Assembly (NCBI GenBank): GCA_028283855.1
Contig: JAPWJX010000003.1
Location: forward strand, 682,001-746,000
Direction: 5' to 3'
DNA length: 64,000 nucleotides
DNA from: Verrucomicrobium sp.
GTDB lineage: Bacteria; Verrucomicrobiota; Verrucomicrobiia; Methylacidiphilales; GAS474
The position numbers and the translations under genes were made by a program. Positions 559 to 21,562 of this stretch are shown here, piece after piece; within the stretch, counting starts at the first letter, position 1, and each line of letters starts with the position of its first letter. A model generated the notes under the pieces. That model searched no databases, had not been told where the DNA came from, and was given only the letters and a program-made list of their open reading frames with translations.

Positions 559-1596
559 TCAGGCGGCGGCCCCGGCCAGGGGCGGCGTCATGGTTCCCTT
601 GAAGCGGGGCTCTTCCGGCGGCAGGCCGAAGTTGGCCGCGACGAGGGTGTCGATGCGGGCCAGTTCCTCCGCCGTGAGGGCGGGGGTCTCCGGCGCGGCG
701 GCGAATTCTTCCAGCTGTTCGGCGTTGTAGATGTTCGGCAGGCAGCAGCCGGTGCGCGGGTCGGCCAGGAGCCATTGGAGGGCGGCCTGGCCCAGGGTGC
801 GGCCGGGGCCTTCCAGGAAGCGGAGCTGGTCGACTTTCTGGATGCCGCTCAGCAGCCAGGAGCGGGGGCGGTGGCTGCGGTGGTCGGTGGGGGGGAAGGT
901 CGTCTCGGCGGTGTATTTCCCCTCCAGCATGCCGCTGGAGTGGGGGACGCGGACCAGGAAGCGGGTGTCGGGGCTCTCGCCGTCGTCCATCATCTGCCGG
1001 CCGGGGTGGGGCTCCAGCAGGTTGTAGATGTGCTGCAGGATGTGGGGGCGGCGCTGGCGGAGGGTTTCGATCCCTTCGTAGAGCCAGCCGATGGCGGGCC
1101 CCAGGGCGGCGCCGTAGGAGCGGATCTTCCCCTCTTTCTGCAGGGCGGCCAGCAGTTCCCAGAGGCCGTCGTCCTGGACTTGTTCCATGCGGATGTTGTG
1201 GAGCTGGAGGATGTCGATCCGGTCGGTCTTCAGGCGCTGGAGGGCCAGGTCGGTGGCCTGGCGGATGAAGGGCAGGGAGAAGTCGTGCGGGATTTCCCGC
1301 TGGCCCCGGCGCTCCTCGCCATGGTCGTAAAAGTTATAACCAACCTTGGTGGCGATGACGACTTTGTCCCGGTCGGCCGGGGTGGGGAAGGCCTTGGCCA
1401 GCAGTTCCTCGCTGCGGCCGTTGCCGTAGGTGTCGGCGGCGTCAAAGAGGGTGATCCCCAGGTCGAGGGCCTTGTGCATGAGGGCGACGGCTTCCTCGTC
1501 GGTGAACTGGCCCCACCATCCGGTCGAAACGGTCCAGAGACCGAAGCCGATTTCGGAAAGCAGGAGGTCGGTGCGGGGAAGGGGGCGGTACTTCAT
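559..1596 (-). CDS. Aldo/keto reductase
   Basis: The 345-residue protein has the (beta/alpha)8 aldo/keto reductase pattern, NADPH-dependent reduction of a carbonyl substrate. Visible family motifs are LFDAADTYGNG, carrying the catalytic Asp and Tyr, IATKVGYN with the catalytic Lys, and ILQLHN with the active-site His. I chose the ATG at 1596 because MKYRPLPRTDL matches the usual family start; the open frame extends upstream to 1839 but that part overlaps nuoJ on the other strand. The substrate cannot be told. It is divergent from the nuo cluster and co-directional with the sensor gene after it. Confidence 0.88.
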   Translation of the reverse strand: MKYRPLPRTDLLLSEIGFGLWTVSTGWWGQFTDEEAVALMHKALDLGITLFDAADTYGNGRSEELLAKAFPTPADRDKVVIATKVGYNFYDHGEERRGQREIPHDFSLPFIRQATDLALQRLKTDRIDILQLHNIRMEQVQDDGLWELLAALQKEGKIRSYGAALGPAIGWLYEGIETLRQRRPHILQHIYNLLEPHPGRQMMDDGESPDTRFLVRVPHSSGMLEGKYTAETTFPPTDHRSHRPRSWLLSGIQKVDQLRFLEGPGRTLGQAALQWLLADPRTGCCLPNIYNAEQLEEFAAAPETPALTAEELARIDTLVAANFGLPPEEPRFKGTMTPPLAGAAA

Positions 1597-1695: not shown

Positions 1696-2157
1696 ATGGA
1701 CGCCTTTATCTTTTGCGTCAGCCTGCTGCCCCTCGGGGCGGGGGGGCTGGCGGTTGTCCTGGGGCGGCGCCCCGTGACGAACGCCGCCGGTTTGGCGGCG
1801 GTCCTGGCCGGGTTGGCCGGGCTTTTCCTTTCCCTGCATGCTTCCGGGCCGGCCTCCGTGGCGGCCGTTCTGGCGGGGGCGGCCTGGGGCGGCCTGATTC
1901 CCTATGCCCGCGGCGCCGGGCTGGAGCCGGAGGAGGGAATGCGGCTGCGCCCCTTCGGCCTGCTCTGCGGCCTGGCGGCGGCTCTCTTTTTCGCCACGGT
2001 CTTTTTCCGCGCGGCCCGGTCGCTAAGCGGCTCTCTGCCGGGGGATGTCTCCGCCGCCGTCGACGGCAGTTATTTTTTGCCCGCTCAGGCGCTGGTCATT
2101 CTGGTCCTGGTAGCGGTGGTGGCCGGGGCTTGGCTGGGGCGGAAGGGGGCGGCGTGA
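1696..2157 (+). CDS. nuoJ: NADH-quinone oxidoreductase subunit J-like membrane protein
   Basis: A 153-residue hydrophobic protein with about five membrane segments, placed directly before a clear NuoK. Position, size and hydropathy identify it as NuoJ, a small subunit of the complex I membrane arm. The usual conserved third helix (VY-x-GA-x-x-VL-x-x-F pattern, containing the E. coli Tyr59 region) is poorly kept: the aligned stretch reads VLAGAAWGGLIPYA. This subunit is therefore divergent, like the rest of the cluster. Its TGA overlaps the GTG start of nuoK. Without the neighbouring genes the assignment would be weak. Confidence 0.65.
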   Translation: MDAFIFCVSLLPLGAGGLAVVLGRRPVTNAAGLAAVLAGLAGLFLSLHASGPASVAAVLAGAAWGGLIPYARGAGLEPEEGMRLRPFGLLCGLAAALFFATVFFRAARSLSGSLPGDVSAAVDGSYFLPAQALVILVLVAVVAGAWLGRKGAA

Positions 2158-2450
2158 CTTTCCACGCCTACGCGGCGGCGGCCGCCTTCCTCTTTTTCCT
2201 GGGAATTTTTGGGATGGTCGCCCGGCGCAATCTCTTTGCCCAGCTGCTTTCCCTTCAGCTTCTCTTTGCCGGGGCAGCCCTGCTTCTGGCCGCCTTCAGC
2301 CGCTTCCGGGACCGGGACGGGGCGGTGTTGGCCGTTTTTGTCCTGATGGTGGCGGCTGTCTGGACGGCGGCGGCCGCGGCGCTCCTCGGCTTTCTGCAGC
2401 GCCGCCGGCGGACGATCCGGAGCGAGGATTTCACGACCCTCAAGTTTTAG
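2154..2450 (+). CDS. nuoK: NADH-quinone oxidoreductase subunit K-like, both conserved Glu lost
   Basis: Ninety-eight residues with three membrane helices and the NuoK landmarks: LGIFGMVARRNL near residue 20 and a basic tail with QRRRR. It starts at GTG 2154, overlapping the nuoJ stop. Aligned by eye to E. coli NuoK, the two membrane glutamates needed for coupling are replaced: Glu36 corresponds to Gln35 (LLSLQLL) and Glu72 to Trp70 (MVAAVWTAA). A six-base gap separates it from the next gene. The fold seems intact but the proton-pathway charges are missing. Confidence 0.8.
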   Translation: MTFHAYAAAAAFLFFLGIFGMVARRNLFAQLLSLQLLFAGAALLLAAFSRFRDRDGAVLAVFVLMVAAVWTAAAAALLGFLQRRRRTIRSEDFTTLKF

Positions 2451-2455
2451 TTCCA

Positions 2456-2728
2456 ATGGCCCTTCCCCGCTTTCTCTATTTGGCGCCGTTCCTGGCCCCC
2501 CTTGCCCTGGGGCTGGCCTGGCTCTTGCGCGGTTTGCCTTCCCTTGGCCTGGCGGCGTTTGTTTCCGCCGTCGACCGCTGGGGCGTCGCCTTTCTCTTGG
2601 TGCGCGGCGCCGGGCTGGCGGCCAGTCTGGCGGGGGAGTGCGGGCGGCTTCTCCAGGTCGGCAATGTGCGGGGCGGCCTTTTCTTCCTGATCCTGGGCGG
2701 CGCGGGGCTCGTCGCCCTTTTCCTCTGA
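2456..2728 (+). CDS. Short membrane protein resembling only the C-terminus of NuoL
   Basis: Ninety residues sit exactly where nuoL (about 600 residues) is expected between nuoK and nuoM. An N-terminal membrane helix (about residues 7-24) is followed by a stretch that matches the extreme C-terminus of NuoL: a VDRWG segment where NuoL has its VDxxxID region, then GRLLQVGNVRGG resembling the family's RxLQTGxVRxY, then a last membrane helix. The antiporter-like core of NuoL is absent. Its TGA overlaps the nuoM ATG. It may be a reduced NuoL retaining only the anchor, or a new subunit built from it. Confidence 0.65.
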   Translation: MALPRFLYLAPFLAPLALGLAWLLRGLPSLGLAAFVSAVDRWGVAFLLVRGAGLAASLAGECGRLLQVGNVRGGLFFLILGGAGLVALFL

Positions 2729-4203
2729 TGTTGGCCCTTCTCCTCCTCCTGCCCCTGGCGGCGCTGGCGGCGATCCTCCTGGGCGCTCCGGCGAAGCTTG
2801 CGGCCTTCCTGGCCGCCCTGGGCAATTTCCTCCTGAGCGCGGCCCTTGCGGTCCGCTTCGTCCCGGGAACGCCCGGCTTCCAGTTCGAGCAGCGGGCGGT
2901 CTGGGCCGCTTTCGACGGGACCGGGAGCCTTTCCCCGACGCTGCCGCCGATTGTCTGCCACCTGGGCATCGACGGCCTGAGCTTGCCCCTTCTTCTGGCG
3001 GCGACGCTGGTGACGCTGGCCGCGGTCCTTCTTACTCCCAAGCGGCTGGCGCAGGGCACGGCGACGTTTTATGGGCTCCTCCTGGTCCTGGCGGAGGGGC
3101 TGGTGGGGGTTTTTGTCTCGCTCGATCTTTTTTTCCTCTCCCTCTTCGCCACGTTGACGATCCTGCCTCTTTTCCTTCTGACGGGCCGTTGGGGCGGGCG
3201 CAATCGGCGCTTTGCCTCCCTTCAGGCGGCGCTCTGCCTGGCGCTGGGGAGCCTGGCCCTGCTCCTGGCCTTGGTCGCCCTCGTCTCCGCGCTGCCGCCC
3301 TCGGCCCGGACGTTTGACGTGACGGTCCTGGCGGGCGCGCGGGGGCTCGTCGGCCCGCAGGTGGCGCCGCTCCTCTTCGGCCTCCTGCTTTTGGGCGCGG
3401 GGCTGTTGGTCCCGCTTTTTCCCTTTCATAGCTGGTTCCCTGCCGCGCAGGCGGCGGAGCCGCCCCCGGTGGCGATGCTCCACGGCGCGCTTTTCAAGAA
3501 TGCCGGACTCTATCTTCTCCTGCGTGTGGCGTGGCCGCTTTTCCCGGAAACGGCGCGGCACGGGGAGGCGTGGCTCCTGGGTCTGGCGCTGGCGCAGGCC
3601 TTCGGCCTCGGCTTGGTGGCGCTGGCGCAGCGGGAGCTGCCGCTTTTGGCCGCTTCCTGGAGCGCGATGCGGACGGGCGGCCTCCTGCTGGGGCTGGCGG
3701 CCTGGAATCGGGTGGCCCTTTCCGGCGCGGTTCTTTGGATGGCGGCGGATGCCGTCGCCTTCGCCCTCCTCTTCGGCGCGGCGGGGGAGATTGTCCGCCG
3801 GACGGGGGAGGCGCGGATCGCCCACCTGGCGGGCCTGGCCCGCCGCGCGCCCTGGCTGGCGGGGATGTTCGGCCTGGGGGCGCTGGCCCTCCTGGGCTTC
3901 CCCGGCCTGCCCAACCTGGGCGGCCAGGAGGCGCTCTTCCTCGGCGCGTGGGCGGTTCACCCCCGCGCGACGCTCTGGATGGCGGGCGGCTTTTTCGCCG
4001 CCGCGGTTTTTCTGGCGAAGGCGCTGGCCCCCCTTTATCTGGGCGCGCCCGCCGGGCCGCCGGGGGCCGACTTGGCCCCGGGCCCGGAACGGCGGCCGTT
4101 CTATCTTTTGGCGGGCGGCCTTCTGCTTCTGGCCCTCCTGGCCGGGTCGGTCCTGCGCGCGGCTTCCGTGGCGGCGGGGCCGTTCTTCGGGGGGGCGCGA
4201 TGA
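2728..4203 (+). CDS. nuoM: NADH-quinone oxidoreductase subunit M-like, key charges altered
   Basis: A 491-residue antiporter-like membrane subunit with about 14 hydrophobic helices. NuoM landmarks remain: LDLFFLSLF, LFLLTGRWGG, PFHSWFP and ALFKNAGLYLLLR. Against E. coli NuoM, Glu144 in helix 5 aligns with Thr142 (FATLTILP), and Lys234 in helix 7 with Leu227 (GLLVPLFPFH). The helix-8 Lys265 is kept as Lys257, and a Glu like Glu407 is kept at 401 (GGQEALF). The Asp of the usual WLPDAH motif is Ala. ATG 2728 overlaps the preceding stop, and the gene overlaps nuoN by four bases. Confidence 0.85.
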   Translation: MLALLLLLPLAALAAILLGAPAKLAAFLAALGNFLLSAALAVRFVPGTPGFQFEQRAVWAAFDGTGSLSPTLPPIVCHLGIDGLSLPLLLAATLVTLAAVLLTPKRLAQGTATFYGLLLVLAEGLVGVFVSLDLFFLSLFATLTILPLFLLTGRWGGRNRRFASLQAALCLALGSLALLLALVALVSALPPSARTFDVTVLAGARGLVGPQVAPLLFGLLLLGAGLLVPLFPFHSWFPAAQAAEPPPVAMLHGALFKNAGLYLLLRVAWPLFPETARHGEAWLLGLALAQAFGLGLVALAQRELPLLAASWSAMRTGGLLLGLAAWNRVALSGAVLWMAADAVAFALLFGAAGEIVRRTGEARIAHLAGLARRAPWLAGMFGLGALALLGFPGLPNLGGQEALFLGAWAVHPRATLWMAGGFFAAAVFLAKALAPLYLGAPAGPPGADLAPGPERRPFYLLAGGLLLLALLAGSVLRAASVAAGPFFGGAR

Positions 4204-5603
4204 ACGGGCTCCTGTTGCCGTTGCCGGAGACGATCCTCGTCGTCCTGGGTCTTTTCCTTTTGGGCCGCCGCTGGCGCGCGGCGCGGCGGGGGGGCGGGCT
4301 GGTGGTGGCGGGAACGCTGGCGGCGCTCCTCCTGGAGTTTGTCCTGCCCCGGCAGTCGGGCTTTTACGGCTTCGGCCTTTATCTTTGGGACGGGACGGCG
4401 CTTTTCTTCCAGGTCTTTGTCCTGGCGGCGACGGCCTGTTGCGCCCTCCTGGGCCTTTTGACCGGGGCGCGGCCGCGCTGGCCGTTCCTTCTTTTTTCCG
4501 CGGCGGGCCTGGTTCTGCAGGCGGCGGTGAACGATTTTCTCCTCCTTTTCCTCGCCTGGACGGCTTCCTTCCTTCCCGCCGCGCTGGCCTTGGCGGGCGG
4601 GCGGGAGGCTTCCGCCGCGGAGGAGGAGGCCTCGGTGAAGACTCTCTTCCTGGCGATGGTGGGCGGGGTGCTCCTGGCCTTGGGGATCGCCTTGATTTTC
4701 GGCGTCGCGGGGAGCACGCGGTTCGACGTCGTTGCGGGGGTGCTGGAGACCCATGATCTGACGCCCGCGCTGGCGGCCGGGCTTCTTCTGGTCTTGGCGG
4801 GCCTGGGCTTCACCATCGGGGCGGTGCCGTTCCATTTTTGGGCGCCCGACGCGCAGCAAGGGGCCTCCATTCCCCTTTCTGCCTTTCTGGCGGTCGCGTT
4901 CAAGGGGGCGGGCTGCGCGGCGCTCTTGCGCGTGCTCGACCTGCCCTTCGGCGGGGTGGCGGTGGAAGGGGTGGCTCTGGCCGCCCTGGCGCTGACGGCG
5001 GTCCTTTCCCTGGCGCTGGGGAGCCTGGCCGGCCTGCCGCAGCGCAACGGCAAGCGCCTTTTGGGCTATGCGGGCATTGCCCACGCGGGATTTTTCCTGG
5101 CCGCCCTGGCGGCCAATAGCCGGGCGGGCTCCCACGCGCTTTGTTTTCTTTTGGTTTCCTATTTCCTGGCCGTTTTCCCCGTCCTGGCGGCGATCGCCCT
5201 TTCCGCCTCGCCGACCGGCGGCCGTCCCCAGCCGGGGACCCTGGCCGCCTTCGCGGGGCTGGGCCGCCGCGCGCCGCTCCTGGCCTGGGCCGCCGCGCTG
5301 GGGCTTGCCTCCCTGGCCGGGATTCCTCCCCTGCCCGGCTTTTTCGCCCGTTTTCTTATCGTGGCGGCCGCGTGGCAGGGGGGACAATACGGCGTGGCGG
5401 CCGCGGCCGTCCTGTTTTCCGTGCCGCTCCTCTATGGGGCGCTGGCGCTCATCCGGGCGATCTTCGTCGAGGAGCCGGCGGAGGAGGCCCCTCTCCGGCT
5501 GGAGCCGGGGATGCGCGCCTTCCTGGCGGGCGGGGTGGGGGTGACCCTCTTTTGCGGCCTCTGGCCGGGGCCGCTGCTGGCTTGGCTGGGCCGTCTCTTT
5601 TAG
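4200..5603 (+). CDS. nuoN: NADH-quinone oxidoreductase subunit N-like, key charges altered
   Basis: A 467-residue antiporter-like membrane subunit, recognisable as NuoN from GAVPFHFWAPDAQQG, AVAFKGAG, KRLLGYAGIAHAG and LAGIPPLPGFFARF. E. coli Glu133 aligns with Thr121 (LFLAWTASFLP). Lys217 aligns with Thr205: the normally FK-x-x-AVPFH motif reads FTIGAVPFH. Lys247 is kept as Lys235 and Lys395 is Arg384. The Thr replacement of the helix-5 Glu parallels that in nuoM. ATG 4200 overlaps the nuoM stop. It is the last gene of the cluster and converges, with a 4-base overlap, on the Fe-S carrier gene. Confidence 0.87.
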   Translation: MNGLLLPLPETILVVLGLFLLGRRWRAARRGGGLVVAGTLAALLLEFVLPRQSGFYGFGLYLWDGTALFFQVFVLAATACCALLGLLTGARPRWPFLLFSAAGLVLQAAVNDFLLLFLAWTASFLPAALALAGGREASAAEEEASVKTLFLAMVGGVLLALGIALIFGVAGSTRFDVVAGVLETHDLTPALAAGLLLVLAGLGFTIGAVPFHFWAPDAQQGASIPLSAFLAVAFKGAGCAALLRVLDLPFGGVAVEGVALAALALTAVLSLALGSLAGLPQRNGKRLLGYAGIAHAGFFLAALAANSRAGSHALCFLLVSYFLAVFPVLAAIALSASPTGGRPQPGTLAAFAGLGRRAPLLAWAAALGLASLAGIPPLPGFFARFLIVAAAWQGGQYGVAAAAVLFSVPLLYGALALIRAIFVEEPAEEAPLRLEPGMRAFLAGGVGVTLFCGLWPGPLLAWLGRLF

Positions 5604-5962
5604 ACGGTGAAGCTCTTCCCGCAGGAGCAGTGGGCGCTGGCGTTCGGGTTGGTGACGGTGAAGCCGGTGCTTTGGAGGTCCTCGCTGTAGTCGAGGGTCG
5701 AGCCGCTGACGTAGAGGGCGCTTTTCGGGTCGATGAAGAGGCGGACGTTGCGCGCTTCGATGACGATGTCCTTCGCCCGGGGTTCTTCCACCAGGTCCAT
5801 TTGATACTGCAGGCCGGAGCATCCCCCGCCGACGACGGCGATGCGGAGGGCCCCCCGGGGCTTGGCGCTCTGGGCCAGGAGGGACTCCAGTTTGCGGGCG
5901 GCGGCGTCGGTCAGGCGGCAAAGGTTTTCGTTGCCGGAGGTGGTGGGGGTGGAAATACCCAT
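5600..5962 (-). CDS. A-type iron-sulfur cluster carrier (IscA/ErpA/HesB family)
   Basis: A 120-residue HesB-like protein that accepts and delivers Fe-S clusters in the cytoplasm. The three conserved cysteines are visible: Cys48 in GGGCSGLQYQM, and Cys112 and Cys114 in the C-terminal HCSCGKSF. The first ~12 residues are a variable extension. It is convergent with nuoN. Complex I needs many Fe-S clusters, so the neighbourhood is sensible, though the facing orientation means it is not co-transcribed. Motifs do not separate ErpA from IscA or SufA. Confidence 0.92.
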   Translation of the reverse strand: MGISTPTTSGNENLCRLTDAAARKLESLLAQSAKPRGALRIAVVGGGCSGLQYQMDLVEEPRAKDIVIEARNVRLFIDPKSALYVSGSTLDYSEDLQSTGFTVTNPNASAHCSCGKSFTV

Positions 5963-15772: not shown

Positions 15773-16204
15773 CTACTTTTTCTTGGCGGGCGCGCTCTTC
15801 TTGGCCGGGGACTCGTTGAGGAGCTTGAGGGCTTTGGCCACGTTGGAGGGGCGGAGGACCAGGAGGCCGTTCTTGGAGGAGGGCGGGGTGGCGCAGTAGA
15901 CGTATTCGATGTTCACGCCGCCCTTGGCCAGGGTGTTGGCGATCTGGGAGAGGCTGCCGGGGCGGTTCTGCCCTTCGAAGAGGATGACCTCGTTCTCCAC
16001 GACCAGGGTGCCGTGGGCTTCCAGCGCGCGGAGGGCGGCCTGCGGCTTGTCGACGATCAGGCGGATGACGACGTGGTCGACGGTGTCGGAGGTGGTGAGG
16101 GCGTGGATGTTGATTCCGGCCTTGGCCAAAAGGTCGCAGACGTCGCAGAGCGCGCCGGGGCGGTTGGCCAGGAAGATCGCCAGCTGGGTGCCGATGTGGG
16201 TCAT
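15773..16204 (-). CDS. Tandem ACT-domain protein
   Basis: A 143-residue protein with two ACT domains: the first starts TQLAIFLANRPGALCDVCDLL and the second EVILFEGQNRPGSLSQIANTL, each in the beta-alpha-beta-beta-alpha-beta pattern that binds amino acids. The C-terminus has a Lys/Ala tail (PAKKSAPAKKK). The ATG at 16204 overlaps the stop of the preceding gene. Tandem ACT proteins of this size are often amino-acid-responsive regulators; downstream of gltB this suggests sensing of an amino acid, which is inference. Confidence 0.8.
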   Translation of the reverse strand: MTHIGTQLAIFLANRPGALCDVCDLLAKAGINIHALTTSDTVDHVVIRLIVDKPQAALRALEAHGTLVVENEVILFEGQNRPGSLSQIANTLAKGGVNIEYVYCATPPSSKNGLLVLRPSNVAKALKLLNESPAKKSAPAKKK

Positions 16205-16947
16205 TTGATTTTTTCGGGTTGGGGGGAGAGGGGGGTGGCGGAGCCGCGCCGGTCGGGGAAGGGGGCCTCGTTCCAGGGGACCTTCGGCTGCGACGGCGGG
16301 GCGGCGTGGCGGTTGTCGGAGACGCGCTCGCCGCGGATGACGCGGGGGAGGTCGACGACCGCGCCGCTGTCGGCGCGCGAGTTGAGGAACCGGGCGCGGC
16401 CCGCGATGCGGGCGCCGTCGGTGACGACGGACTGGTGGACCTCGGTCAGGTATTCGCTGTCCGTGTCGCCGATGACTTCGGCGGCGTGGTCGAGGGCCGA
16501 CTTGGAGATCCGCATCAGGCCGCGGACGCGGACGCCCTCGCCCAGGGTGGACTGCCAGATGTGGCCCCGGGCGGTCACGTCGGCCTCGCGCAGTTTGGCC
16601 CGTTCCAGGCCGAGGCTCTCCGTGGTGCCGACGGCCCCGTAAAGGTGCTTGGCGGGCAGGACGGAGACGTGGGAGGAGGCGATGACGGTGCCCTGCCGGG
16701 CGATGACGCCGGGCCCGACGAAGGAGGGGCCTTCGACGCGGGCGTCCTCGGAAAGGTAGGTTTCCTCGCCGCAGATGATCGCCTCGGCGTCGGCGTGGAC
16801 GCCGGGGCCGACGGAGGCCGACTGGTGGACCCACGCGCCGGGGCTTTGGTCCGGGTTCACGTGACGCCGCCACTCGGCGGGGGCGAAGTGGACGTCCGGC
16901 CCGGCGAGCTGCCGGAGGCGCTGGTGGAGGACGTCGATCTCGCTCAC
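16201..16947 (-). CDS. Hexapeptide/beta-helix-like protein of unknown function (paralogue A)
   Basis: A 248-residue protein with Val/Gly/Ala-rich imperfect six-residue periodicity (SASVGPGVHADAEAIICG, YLSEDARVEGPSFVGPGV) that suggests a left-handed beta-helix, as in acyltransferases and adaptor proteins. No catalytic residues are evident. The motif WRRHVNPDQSPGAWV and the later LSEDARVEGP recur, altered, in the protein at 24845-25579, so the two are paralogues. It lies six bases after gltB and overlaps the ACT gene, forming an operon gltB - this gene - ACT. Confidence 0.6.
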   Translation of the reverse strand: MSEIDVLHQRLRQLAGPDVHFAPAEWRRHVNPDQSPGAWVHQSASVGPGVHADAEAIICGEETYLSEDARVEGPSFVGPGVIARQGTVIASSHVSVLPAKHLYGAVGTTESLGLERAKLREADVTARGHIWQSTLGEGVRVRGLMRISKSALDHAAEVIGDTDSEYLTEVHQSVVTDGARIAGRARFLNSRADSGAVVDLPRVIRGERVSDNRHAAPPSQPKVPWNEAPFPDRRGSATPLSPQPEKIK

Positions 16948-16953
16948 GATGGG

Positions 16954-19900
16954 TTAGGGCGTGGCGGCGGGTTCGGCGGGCTTGCCCTCGGAGAGGGCGG
17001 CCTTGGCGGGGACGGGCGCGGCGGTGCTGACGGTGGGATGGGGGACGACCTTCCAGAAGGCGGCGCGGGCGGCCTCCCATTCCGCCAGGAGCCCGGCGGC
17101 GTGGGTGCTGCCGGTGGCCTTCTGATGGCGCTCGACGAGGGCGCGCAGGGCGTCGGCTTCCCCGCCCTTTTCCAGGCGCTCGATGCCGACGATGGCGGGG
17201 TTGTAGAGGGTTTCGAACGCGCCGGCGGGGTCCCAGACGTAGGCGACGCCGCCGGACATGCCCGCGCCGAAGTTTTTCCCCGTGGGGCCGAGGACGACGA
17301 CGGTGCCGCGCGTCATGTATTCGCAGCCGTGGTCGCCGATGCCCTCGACGACGGCGGTGGCGCCGCTGTTGCGGACGGCGAAGCGCTCGCCCGCCCGCCC
17401 GTTGGCGAAGAGGAGGCCGCCGGTGGCGCCGTAGAGGACGGTGTTGCCGCAGATCGAGTTCTCGTGCGGGGCGAAGCCGTGGCGGCTGTGGGGCTTGAGG
17501 GCGATTTCCCCGCCGGACATGCCCTTGCCCACGTAGTCGTTGGCCTCCCCGGAGAGGAGGAGGCGGATGCCGGGGACCAGGAAGGCGCCCAGGCTCTGCC
17601 CGGCGCTGCCGGAGAGGGCGATCTCGATGGTCCCTTCCGGCAGGTGGTGCATGCCGGTGGCGTAGGCGATGGCGCCGGAGAGCTGGGTGCCCACGCTGCG
17701 GTTCACGTTGGTGACTTTGTAGCGGAGCTTGAGCGGGCGGCGGTTCTGCAGGGCGCTGCGCGCGGCCTGCAGGATGTCGTTGTCCAGGGGGCGGTCTTCC
17801 AGCTTGGTGTTGGTGTCCCAGGTGTGGTGGCGCGGGACGGTCTCGTGGACGGGCGGGACGGCGATGAGGGACTTGAGGTCGAGGGTGTTGGCCTTCGGGT
17901 GGCCGGGGATGTTCCGCTGTTCCAGCCATTCGGCGTGGCCGATCAGCTCGTTCATGGTGCGGACGCCCATGCCGGCCATGATTTCCCGGACTTCCTGGGC
18001 GACGGCGTCGAAGAAGCGGATGACGTTCTCCGGCGAGCCCTTGAACTTGGCCCGCAGCTTCTCGTCCTGGGTGGCGACGCCCACGGGGCAGTTGTTGAGG
18101 TGGCACTGGCGGACGTAGACGCAGCCCGCCGCGATGAGGGCGACGGTGCCGAAGTTGTATTCCTCCGCGCCGAGGAGGGCGGCGACGACGATGTCGAAGC
18201 CGGTGCGCATGCCGCCGTCCGTCCGCAGGGTGACGCGGTTGCGCAGGCCGTTCCAGAGGAGGACCTGCTGGGCTTCCGAGACGCCCATCTCCCACGGCGC
18301 GCCGCAGTTTTTGATGGAGGAAAGGGGGCTGGCGCCGGTGCCGCCGTCGTGGCCGCTGATGAGGATGACGTCGGCGTGGGCCTTGGCCACGCCCGCGGCG
18401 ATGGTGCCGACGCCCGCTTCCGCGACGAGCTTGACGCAGATCTTGGCGCGCGGGTTGACCTGCTTGAGGTCGTAGATGAGCTGGGCCAGGTCCTCGATGC
18501 TGTAGATGTCGTGGTGGGGCGGCGGGGAGATGAGCATCACTCCGGGGGTGGAGTGGCGCAGCCGCGCGATGAGGGCGGAGACTTTGTGGCCGGGGATCTG
18601 GCCGCCCTCGCCGGGCTTGGAGCCCTGGGCCATCTTGATCTCGATCTCCGCCGCGCTGGCCAGGTATTCCGCCGTGACGCCGAAGCGGCCGGAGGCGATC
18701 TGCTTGATGGCGCTGTTCTTCGAGTCGCCGTTGTCGAGGGGGATGAAGCGCTCGCGGTCCTCGCCGCCCTCGCCGGAGTTGGACTTGCCGCCGATGCGGT
18801 TCATCGCCACGGCGAGCGTCTCGTGCGCCTCCGGGGAGAGGGCGCCCAGGGACATGCCGGCGGTGGTGAAGCGCTTGCGGATTTCCTCCACGGGCTCGAC
18901 CTCTTCCAGGGGGATGGGGGTGCCGGGCTTGATGGAGAGGCAGTGGCGGAGGTCGAGGGGCTGGGTTTCCAGGACGGCCTCGACGTATTTGCGGTAGTCC
19001 TCGAGCTTGCCGGCCTTGTCGGCGCCCTTGATGCCGCTGAAGGTGTGGAGGTTCTGGATGACCTGCGGGGTGACGGCGTGGGCTTCCCCGTCCCGGCGGA
19101 AGCGGTAGTAGCCCGCGTCGGCCAGCTTGGGGTTTTCCTCCGCGAAGCCGGCGTGGTGGCGGGCCAGGGTTTCCTGGGCGATTTCCTTGAGGCCGATGCC
19201 GGAAAGGGGGGTGGAGACGCCGGAGAAGTATTCGGCGGCGACGGCGCGGTCGATGCCGATGGCCTGGAAGACCTGGGCCCCGTGGTAGCTCTCCAGGGTG
19301 GAGATGCCCATCTTGGACATGATCTTGAGGAGGCCCTTCTCGATGGCGGCGCGGTAGTTTTTCCAGGCCGCGGCGGCGTCGACGTTGAGCTGCCCCTGGG
19401 CGAGGAGGTCGCGGTAGGTGGCGGCGGCCAGGTAGGGATGGACGGCGGAGGCGCCGAAGCCGATGAGGCAGGCGAACTGGTGGACGTCCCGGCACTCGCC
19501 CGTCTCCGCGACGAGGGAGAGCTGCATGCGCTTGCCCTTGCGGATGAGGTGGTGGTGGATGGCGGAGACGCAGAGGAGCATCGGCAGGGCGGCCTGGCCG
19601 GCGGAGACGCCCCGGTCGCTGAGGATCAGGAGGGCGACGTCGGCGTCGGCGGCTTTTTCCGCCTCCTCGCGCAGTTCCTGGAGCCGGTGGGCGAAGGCGC
19701 GGACGTTCTGCTCCGCGTCGGCCCCCACGGGGAAGAGGCAGGAGAGGGTCTTGGCGCGCAGGCTGGGCTCCGGGCGGCTGCGCAGTTCCTCCAGCTCGGC
19801 GCCGGAGAGGACGGGGCTTTGCAGGCGCAGGCAGTCGGCGTGGCCGGGGGCCTGGTCCAGGAGGTTGCCGCTGCGGCCGCAGTGGATTTCCAGGGACATG

Positions 19901-21525
19901 ACCAGCTTCTCGCGGATCGGGTCGATCGGCGGGTTGGTGACCTGGGCGAAGAGCTGCTTGAAATAGGTGTAGAGGAGCCGGGGCTTGAGGGAGAGGACGG
20001 CCAGGGGGGTGTCGTCGCCCATGGAGCCGATGGCTTCCTCGCCGGTTTCCGCCATCGGCTTGAGGATGACTTTGATCTCTTCCTCGTTGTAGCCGAAGGC
20101 GAGCTGCCGCGGGGGGAGGGGTTCGGCCTCGGCCTCGCCCAGGGCGGGCTCCGTCCGGAGTTCCTTGAGGCTTTCCTTCAGCCACTGCCCGTAGGGCTGG
20201 CGGGAGGCGTAGTGGGCCTTGATCTCGTCGTTGTGCCAGAGCTTCTTGGCCACGGTGTCGACGGCCAGGATCTCGCCGGGGGCCAGGCGGCCTTTCTCGA
20301 CCACGTCCTTGTCGTCGAAGGCGGCGACGCCGACTTCCGAGCCGAGGAAGACGAGGCCCCCGCGCGTGACCACGTAGCGGGCGGGGCGCAGGCCGTTGCG
20401 GTCCAGGCAGGCGGCGACGGTCCGCCCGTCGGAGAGGACGAGGGCGGCGGGGCCGTCCCACGGCTCGGTGACGCAGGCGTGGTATTCGTAGAAGGCTTTC
20501 TTTTCCGGGGTGATCTTGGCGTCGGCGCGCCAGGCGGCGGGCACCAGCATCATGATGCTGTGCAGCAGGTCGCGGCCGGACATGCAGAGCAGCTCCAGGG
20601 TGTTGTCCAGGGAGGCGGAATCGCTCCCGCCCGGCTGGATGACGGGGCGGAGGAACTCGACGTCCTTCCCCCAGAACGGCCACTCCATGCGGGCCTCCCG
20701 GGCGCGCATCCAGATGCGGTTGCCCTGGACGGTGTTGATCTCCCCGTTGTGCCCCAGGAAGCGGAAGGGCTGGGCCAGGGGCCAGGTGGGGAAGGTGTTG
20801 GTGCTGTAGCGCTGGTGGTAGACGGCCAGGGCGGTCTTGTAGTCCGGGTTGCGCAGGTCCAGGTAGAATTTGTCCAGCTGGGGGGAGACGAGGAGGCCCT
20901 TGTAGACGATGGTCCGGCTGGAGAAGGAGGGGACGTAGAAGTTTTTGATCCCGCCCTGGGCGACCCGGTATTCGATCTCCGAGCGGCAGAGGTAGAGGAG
21001 CTGCTCGTATTCTTCCGCGCCCATGCGGGAGTCGGCGGGCTTGCCGATGAGGGCCTGCTCCATGTGGGGGCAGGTGGCCAGGGCCTTGTCCCCCAGGACC
21101 TCCATGCGGACGGGCACCTTCCGCCAGCCGAAGAGGCAGAGCTTGCGCTTGAGGAGGGTCTCCTCCACCACCTTCCGGCAGAAGGCCTGCTCGTAGGCGT
21201 TGTCCTTCGGCAGGAAGAGGAAGCCGACGGCCAGGTCGTCGTCGGAAAAGAGGCGCTGGCCCATCTTTTCGATCTCTCCCCGGAAGAGGTCGTAGGGGAG
21301 CTGGGTCTGGACCCCGGCGCCGTCGCCCGTCTTGGCGTCGGCGTCCATGGCGCCGCGGTGGGAAAGGGCGCGGACGCAGCGGAGGGCCGCCTGGAGGATC
21401 TGGTGGGAGCGCTCCCCGTCGATCCCGGCGACGAAGCCGACGCCGCAGGCGTCGTGTTCCTGGGAGGGGTCGTAGAGCCCCTGGAAGGAGCCGACACGGT
21501 CGAGGATCGCTTGGTTGAGAGCCAT
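16954..21525 (-). CDS. gltB: Glutamate synthase, large (alpha) subunit
   Basis: A 1523-residue GOGAT large subunit: it hydrolyses glutamine and transfers ammonia to 2-oxoglutarate. Domains in order: class II amidotransferase starting at Cys27 (EHDACGVGF, so a 26-residue propeptide is expected to be removed), a central domain, the FMN-binding synthase domain with GGKSNSGEGGED and PGEGGQIPGHKV, the Cys cluster CVYVRQCHLNNC near residue 1140 for the [3Fe-4S] centre, and the GXGXG beta-helix (GAGMSGGVAYVWD). Full length. No gltD is in the window. Confidence 0.97.
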   Translation of the reverse strand: MALNQAILDRVGSFQGLYDPSQEHDACGVGFVAGIDGERSHQILQAALRCVRALSHRGAMDADAKTGDGAGVQTQLPYDLFRGEIEKMGQRLFSDDDLAVGFLFLPKDNAYEQAFCRKVVEETLLKRKLCLFGWRKVPVRMEVLGDKALATCPHMEQALIGKPADSRMGAEEYEQLLYLCRSEIEYRVAQGGIKNFYVPSFSSRTIVYKGLLVSPQLDKFYLDLRNPDYKTALAVYHQRYSTNTFPTWPLAQPFRFLGHNGEINTVQGNRIWMRAREARMEWPFWGKDVEFLRPVIQPGGSDSASLDNTLELLCMSGRDLLHSIMMLVPAAWRADAKITPEKKAFYEYHACVTEPWDGPAALVLSDGRTVAACLDRNGLRPARYVVTRGGLVFLGSEVGVAAFDDKDVVEKGRLAPGEILAVDTVAKKLWHNDEIKAHYASRQPYGQWLKESLKELRTEPALGEAEAEPLPPRQLAFGYNEEEIKVILKPMAETGEEAIGSMGDDTPLAVLSLKPRLLYTYFKQLFAQVTNPPIDPIREKLVMSLEIHCGRSGNLLDQAPGHADCLRLQSPVLSGAELEELRSRPEPSLRAKTLSCLFPVGADAEQNVRAFAHRLQELREEAEKAADADVALLILSDRGVSAGQAALPMLLCVSAIHHHLIRKGKRMQLSLVAETGECRDVHQFACLIGFGASAVHPYLAAATYRDLLAQGQLNVDAAAAWKNYRAAIEKGLLKIMSKMGISTLESYHGAQVFQAIGIDRAVAAEYFSGVSTPLSGIGLKEIAQETLARHHAGFAEENPKLADAGYYRFRRDGEAHAVTPQVIQNLHTFSGIKGADKAGKLEDYRKYVEAVLETQPLDLRHCLSIKPGTPIPLEEVEPVEEIRKRFTTAGMSLGALSPEAHETLAVAMNRIGGKSNSGEGGEDRERFIPLDNGDSKNSAIKQIASGRFGVTAEYLASAAEIEIKMAQGSKPGEGGQIPGHKVSALIARLRHSTPGVMLISPPPHHDIYSIEDLAQLIYDLKQVNPRAKICVKLVAEAGVGTIAAGVAKAHADVILISGHDGGTGASPLSSIKNCGAPWEMGVSEAQQVLLWNGLRNRVTLRTDGGMRTGFDIVVAALLGAEEYNFGTVALIAAGCVYVRQCHLNNCPVGVATQDEKLRAKFKGSPENVIRFFDAVAQEVREIMAGMGVRTMNELIGHAEWLEQRNIPGHPKANTLDLKSLIAVPPVHETVPRHHTWDTNTKLEDRPLDNDILQAARSALQNRRPLKLRYKVTNVNRSVGTQLSGAIAYATGMHHLPEGTIEIALSGSAGQSLGAFLVPGIRLLLSGEANDYVGKGMSGGEIALKPHSRHGFAPHENSICGNTVLYGATGGLLFANGRAGERFAVRNSGATAVVEGIGDHGCEYMTRGTVVVLGPTGKNFGAGMSGGVAYVWDPAGAFETLYNPAIVGIERLEKGGEADALRALVERHQKATGSTHAAGLLAEWEAARAAFWKVVPHPTVSTAAPVPAKAALSEGKPAEPAATP

Positions 21526-21562
21526 TTCCGCCCTTAAGGCTAGGCGAACTCCTTATAATAAC

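Follow-up and report, generated by a model that had tools for sequence, protein, structure and literature searches.

The window, which is the whole 64,000-nucleotide stretch of Verrucomicrobium sp. DNA analyzed here, contains a cluster of genes resembling nuoJ, nuoK, nuoM and nuoN of complex I (NDH-1, Nuo), and the place of nuoL, between nuoK and nuoM, is taken by a gene of 90 codons that is here called L' (Table 1). The locus therefore raises the question of what such a cluster is: a deliberately reduced arm of complex I, as originally predicted, which might still belong to a working enzyme, a decaying pseudogene cluster, an ion transporter, or a remnant retained in some other capacity. The next subsections lead to the last of these, namely that J-K-L'-M-N are the remains of the membrane arm after complex I was lost, still constrained as membrane protein, a reading that we favor over its rivals while holding it with reserve.

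Table 1. Genes of the nuo cluster and its flanks (positions in the window)
Feature	Positions	Strand	Evidence and remarks
Aldo/keto reductase (AKR)	559..1596	-	PF00248, 164.5 bits; ancestral left neighbor of the nuo cluster
NuoJ-like, highly diverged	1696..2157	+	PF00499, 18.7 bits, under the cut-off of 33.2
NuoK-like	2154..2450	+	PF00420, 54.6 bits
L' (short gene in the nuoL slot)	2456..2728	+	90 aa, ATG to TGA; NuoL C-terminal profile
NuoM-like, whole length	2728..4203	+	PF00361, 98.1 bits
NuoN-like, whole length	4200..5603	+	PF00361, 162.2 bits
ErpA-like Fe-S insertion protein	5600..5962	-	TIGR00049, 125 bits

The short gene in the nuoL slot

The original prediction described a 90-residue gene whose second half matches the C-terminus of NuoL, and both the frame and the assignment proved correct. 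A profile made from the C-terminal 65 residues of NuoL in 25 orthologues matched residues 31-90 of L' with 52.6 bits, and none of 1000 shuffles scored as well. When L' was used as the query against the genomes of the order, matches were obtained in 35 of 60, itself included (E <= 0.001), the best non-self match having an E value of 3.5e-10 and 50% identity across residues 33-88; these matches fall at the ends of frames that are mostly about 600 residues long. Searches with the single sequence gave no significant match in Pfam, NCBIfam or the PDB, so the likeness to NuoL is visible only with the help of relatives or a dedicated profile. L' is a real gene whose residues 31-90, with 9 of 13 conserved sites kept, are the C-terminal end of NuoL, that is, the end of the lateral helix and the last transmembrane helix (TM16). 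Its TGA (2726-2728) overlaps the ATG of nuoM (2728-2730), and the expectation that the gene is translated, which was drawn from this stop/start overlap, stands.

The helix that was expected to precede the NuoL tail is predicted at residues 6-26 of the first 30, and an AF2 model of L', which is of low confidence (pLDDT 73, pTM 0.39), places helices at 6-26, 32-67 and 71-89. A derivation of the N-terminal helix from NuoL TM1 (MALPRFLYLAPFLAPL), proposed by eye, is unsupported, with 557 of 1000 shuffles scoring equally and 710 of 5000 doing so in an anchored test.

About 500 residues of NuoL are lost in L', which has no PF00361 antiporter core. The NuoL core is absent from the genome as well, where the NuoM-like and NuoN-like proteins of this cluster are the only two PF00361 proteins, in line with the proposal of a NuoL devoid of its antiporter core; complex I requires three antiporter-like subunits, L, M and N, and M and N alone are present. 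What L' holds is the proximal anchor of NuoL, located near the subunits that remain, and the protein could still dock there. The short form is private to this genome, since the same slot holds a full-length nuoL (591-658 aa) in 26 of the 26 examined relatives that have the cluster, an outcome that the original prediction had itself named as one that would refute it.

Position and ancestry of the cluster

Synteny was compared at the loci of these 26 relatives; in G022 and G011 the contig ends within N. nuoI precedes nuoJ in 22 of them and is unmatched in G012, G006, G004 and G017, while erpA follows nuoN in at least 11 and AKR precedes nuoI in at least 6, others being hidden by the ends of contigs and of the compared loci. 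In the window, AKR still flanks the cluster next to J and ErpA next to N, and because both flanks are kept, the cluster most simply sits at its ancestral place. nuoI is missing from its ancestral slot, where 99 bp separate AKR and nuoJ. The nuoN and ErpA-like genes are convergent, with stops overlapping by 4 bp; the ErpA-like gene is thus inverted with respect to nuoN, the two being co-directional in the 11 relatives where erpA follows nuoN. Relative G020 (C10:52001-66000) has a different, diverged cluster of four antiporter-like genes, two of them NuoM-like, which we take to resemble tandem-NuoM complexes.

In the congener G002, AKR and ErpA abut, about a dozen bases apart, and the flanking FliD, 8216 gene and FliS are ordered as in the window, which most simply suggests a clean deletion of the cluster at the same site. 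On the shared order of AKR, ErpA, FliD and FliS, a chimeric assembly was rejected. A horizontal origin was rejected on two grounds, namely that the full-length NuoM proteins of the order reach up to 45% identity, and that the N and ArgRS trees put this genome (G000) beside the same family. A pattern-based scan of contigs returned mainly Nitrospirota (9 of the 10 loci listed), with 27-30% identity. The M tree, which places G000 beside G024, is read as a long-branch effect.

Divergence and tests of neutral drift

Among sites conserved in at least 90% of the orthologues, J keeps 16/39, K 22/42, M 85/133 and N 66/97, a retention of 0.41-0.68 compared with 0.76-1.00 in relatives (leave-one-out). 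The NuoJ-like protein has lost the YAGAVMVLFLF segment in the alignment. Mean tree distances relative to the others are 2.14 for J, 2.31 for K, 1.57 for M and 1.42 for N, and 0.94 for ArgRS (18 shared genomes); the four cluster proteins evolve at 1.4-2.3 times the pace of their relatives, and ArgRS shows no such acceleration. The GC3 difference of M minus ArgRS is -0.077, a value equal to the lowest among 17 relatives. An AF2 model of the NuoM-like protein built with 20 orthologues has the NuoM fold (pLDDT 91, pTM 0.92; best PDB match 8qby_M, TM 0.91), although a fold driven by the alignment shows compatibility only. The cluster has no stops and no frameshift, and the overlapping gene junctions are intact. 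A promoter search with the sigma-70 consensus only found no match, a point against the reading favored here.

Fast evolution and the loss of conserved sites are what plain pseudogene decay would produce, in which case the genes would have no function, the open frames would be a chance effect of the high GC content, and a deletion like that in G002 would soon follow. This explanation was confronted with a neutral simulation, in which consensus proteins written in the codon usage of this genome were mutated without selection until the observed loss of conserved sites was reached (200 replicates in each of 4 settings that differed in base composition and transition bias; with a local intergenic GC of 0.60 over 605 bp, the setting with GC 0.75 is lenient). 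Stops expected in J+K+M+N had means of 7.9-11.8 against 0 observed, and stop-free replicates were 0/200 in every setting. The TM-core hydropathy of M (2.15) and N (1.98) exceeds the neutral maxima of 1.84 and 1.76 (60 replicates), and the codons TTA, CTA and TCA occur once in J+K+M+N against a neutral mean of 16.2 and a minimum of 6 (200 replicates), so that rare codons are still avoided.

Other observations agree with decay. J and K, which have the largest loss of conserved sites, are inside the neutral range when taken alone (stop-free replicate share of 0.10-0.26 and 0.38-0.51, respectively), and so is their TM-core hydropathy. The GC3 of J, K, M and N fits the neutral prediction. Furthermore, K, L', M and N each have one antisense frame that is also stop-free, as can occur in GC-rich DNA, the cluster is absent from G002, and the authors who described an orphan nuoJKLMN in Gilliamella prefer to regard it as remnants in their report (PMC11325843). 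Elsewhere in the window, at 15773-21537, the GC-rich DNA carries overlapping frames of 1636 aa and 1523 aa (- strand) and 1772 aa (+ strand).

On balance, pseudogene decay is an unlikely account, yet the strongest of the rivals, as neither broken frames nor neutral drift describes the cluster as a whole. By these statistics, the frames as a set are not the product of neutral drift lasting long enough to lose this many conserved residues, and M and N are still maintained as hydrophobic proteins with multiple membrane passes. Between G000 and G002, the flanking genes have a four-fold site divergence of 0.33-0.40, which approaches saturation for the composition (0.48-0.59); if the loss of the redox genes predates the split of these genomes, as their shared absence suggests, pure drift would probably have altered M and N more than is observed.

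Loss of the channel residues

Nine channel residues, picked from known complex I biochemistry and numbered as in PMC9271201, are kept by all the aligned orthologues, except M E144 (23/24). Seven of them are replaced in the window: E36>Q and E72>W in the NuoK-like protein, E144>T and E407>Q in the NuoM-like protein, and E133>T, K217>T and K395>R in the NuoN-like protein. The two central lysines stay (M K265, N K247). H322>R in the NuoM-like protein was noticed afterwards and is outside the nine counted. The relatives G006, G009 and G028 keep all nine, save one E>D in G028, even though the NuoN of G006 is itself fast (76/100 conserved sites kept). Channel losses are over-represented (7/9 against 122/311 overall, binomial P 0.022), in one modest test with the nine residues themselves among the 311. 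The charged conserved sites kept (M 10/19, N 13/19, K 4/7, J 0/2) are near the overall retention, which excludes a general de-charging; the original prediction of de-charged K, M and N is right for the channel. At the site of the NuoM TM7 lysine (K234 in E. coli), all 24 aligned orthologues and the window have Leu. The nuo genes of these relatives are full-length all the same, and the order seems to run complex I without this lysine.

The proteins might alternatively have been exapted as an ion transporter, with J, K, M, N and L' acting like an Mrp antiporter that needs no redox partner. Mrp (CPA3) antiporters do have homologous K/M/N-type subunits without a redox module; K, M and N resemble Mrp C/D subunits, the M model matches the Mrp D subunits 9a6h_B, 6z16_D and 7qru_D with TM-scores of 0.82-0.85 (query length), and the central TM8 lysines are kept in M and N. 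Against these likenesses, replacements have removed the TM5/TM12 glutamates from M, E133/K217 from N and the two glutamates from NuoK, and a large MrpA-type subunit is missing from a genome with two PF00361 proteins only, which makes a transporter improbable.

What the genome and its congeners lack

Genome G000 has 2.56 Mb on 9 contigs and is 95.6% complete. The search of the redox and Q modules covered NuoB (PF01058), NuoD (PF00346), NuoF (PF01512) and NuoH (PF00146), and none of the four, all of which complex I requires, had a match in G000; in the relative G031, the best hits of these models reach 121-384 bits. The gene content is that of an orphan nuoJKLMN, J-K-L-M-N without NuoB, D, F and H, with L as a C-terminus only. 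Congeners G001 (82% complete) and G002 (one contig, 99%) have no PF00361, NuoD or NuoH, and G002 lacks NuoB and NuoF too. NuoF- and NuoB-like genes lie on one contig of G001 within 2.4 kb, and because G001 has no NuoD, the pair is taken for a candidate hydrogenase. NuoM, sought in 62 genomes of the order, was matched in 55, and among the 28 good ones G002 is the only one without it.

A reduced complex I that works, with soluble and Q-module genes unassembled or too diverged to detect, could appeal to the 95.6% completeness and to a J that is itself below its Pfam cut-off, but it is highly improbable given the scores in G031, the absence of B, D, F and H from the 99% complete G002, the loss of nuoI in place and the loss of channel residues. 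The deliberately reduced arm of the original prediction consequently finds no support as a working enzyme, with both congeners also devoid of antiporter-like subunits.

No NQR/RNF (PF03116) was found in G000-G002, which speaks against a replacement of complex I by such an enzyme. COX1 is present twice in G000, which for this reason appears to respire; with two COX1 genes yet no NQR/RNF, NADH must presumably enter respiration by another route, perhaps NDH-2.

Comparison with known systems

Partial nuo clusters are already known, and a survey counted incomplete nuo sets in 2,171 species, according to its report (PMC12361115). The cluster is like complex I in its gene order, homology, M fold, the identity of L' with the NuoL C-terminus and vertical inheritance within the order; it differs in that searches turned up none of NuoB, D, F and H, nuoI is gone from its slot, the NuoL core is deleted and seven of nine channel residues are replaced. 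A close parallel by gene content, as described in PMC11325843, is the orphan nuoJKLMN of Gilliamella and other Orbaceae, where the same five subunits are kept without the other nine. Orbaceae are an unrelated lineage, however, and that study found the cluster in all of its 95 Gilliamella genomes, calling the genes probable remnants. The nuo2 cluster of Streptomyces, described as lacking NuoCDEFG and L and as unclear in function (PMC9239103), is likewise a partial cluster without nuoL, but its genome carries a canonical nuo cluster beside it. In E. coli, a deletion of NuoL residues 6-375 that leaves the C-terminus cut the amount of enzyme to about a quarter and all but abolished quinone reductase activity, as reported in PMC3274701; unlike L', that truncation is engineered, leaves a larger remnant and stands within a full complex I. 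Searches of the open-licence PMC literature yielded no report of the present cluster, nor of a NuoL cut back to its tail alongside a stripped channel, of a sister genome without the cluster at the same site or of evidence against free drift of the frames.

A probable leftover of the membrane arm

The favored reading, remains of the membrane arm that are still under constraint, is as follows. From the ancestral order AKR-nuoI-J-K-L-M-N-erpA, nuoI and about 500 residues of NuoL have been lost here, and the membrane-arm cluster would be what is left in a lineage that lost the complex I enzyme. The products would be made and would form a membrane assembly that neither oxidizes NADH nor pumps protons, since the relay through K E36/E72, M E144/H322/E407 and N E133/K217 is cut; with these residues gone and no Q-module electron source found, pumping is unlikely. 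Because the NuoL portion present in L' is the anchor at the arm's proximal end, beside the retained subunits, L' could serve as a structural clip. Our best guess is that relaxed selection acts on an assembly whose role is structural or passive; whatever this role is, it is dispensable, as the congeners do without the cluster.

A bolder version, which we put forward tentatively and consider unlikely to be right, is that after the loss of the redox module the orphan arm was first disarmed, by removal of the relay and of the distal NuoL core, and afterwards took on a new role, structural or regulatory, as a membrane assembly that does not pump; the nuoJKLMN of Orbaceae would be a second, independent case. 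The motive for disarming would perhaps be that a masterless arm leaks protons.

The cluster is an intermediate between the full complex I of its relatives and the complete absence at the same site in G002, and it provides evidence that leftovers of complex I can remain under coding constraint. If unrelated lineages keep orphan arms, calling them 'remnants' may obscure a testable function.
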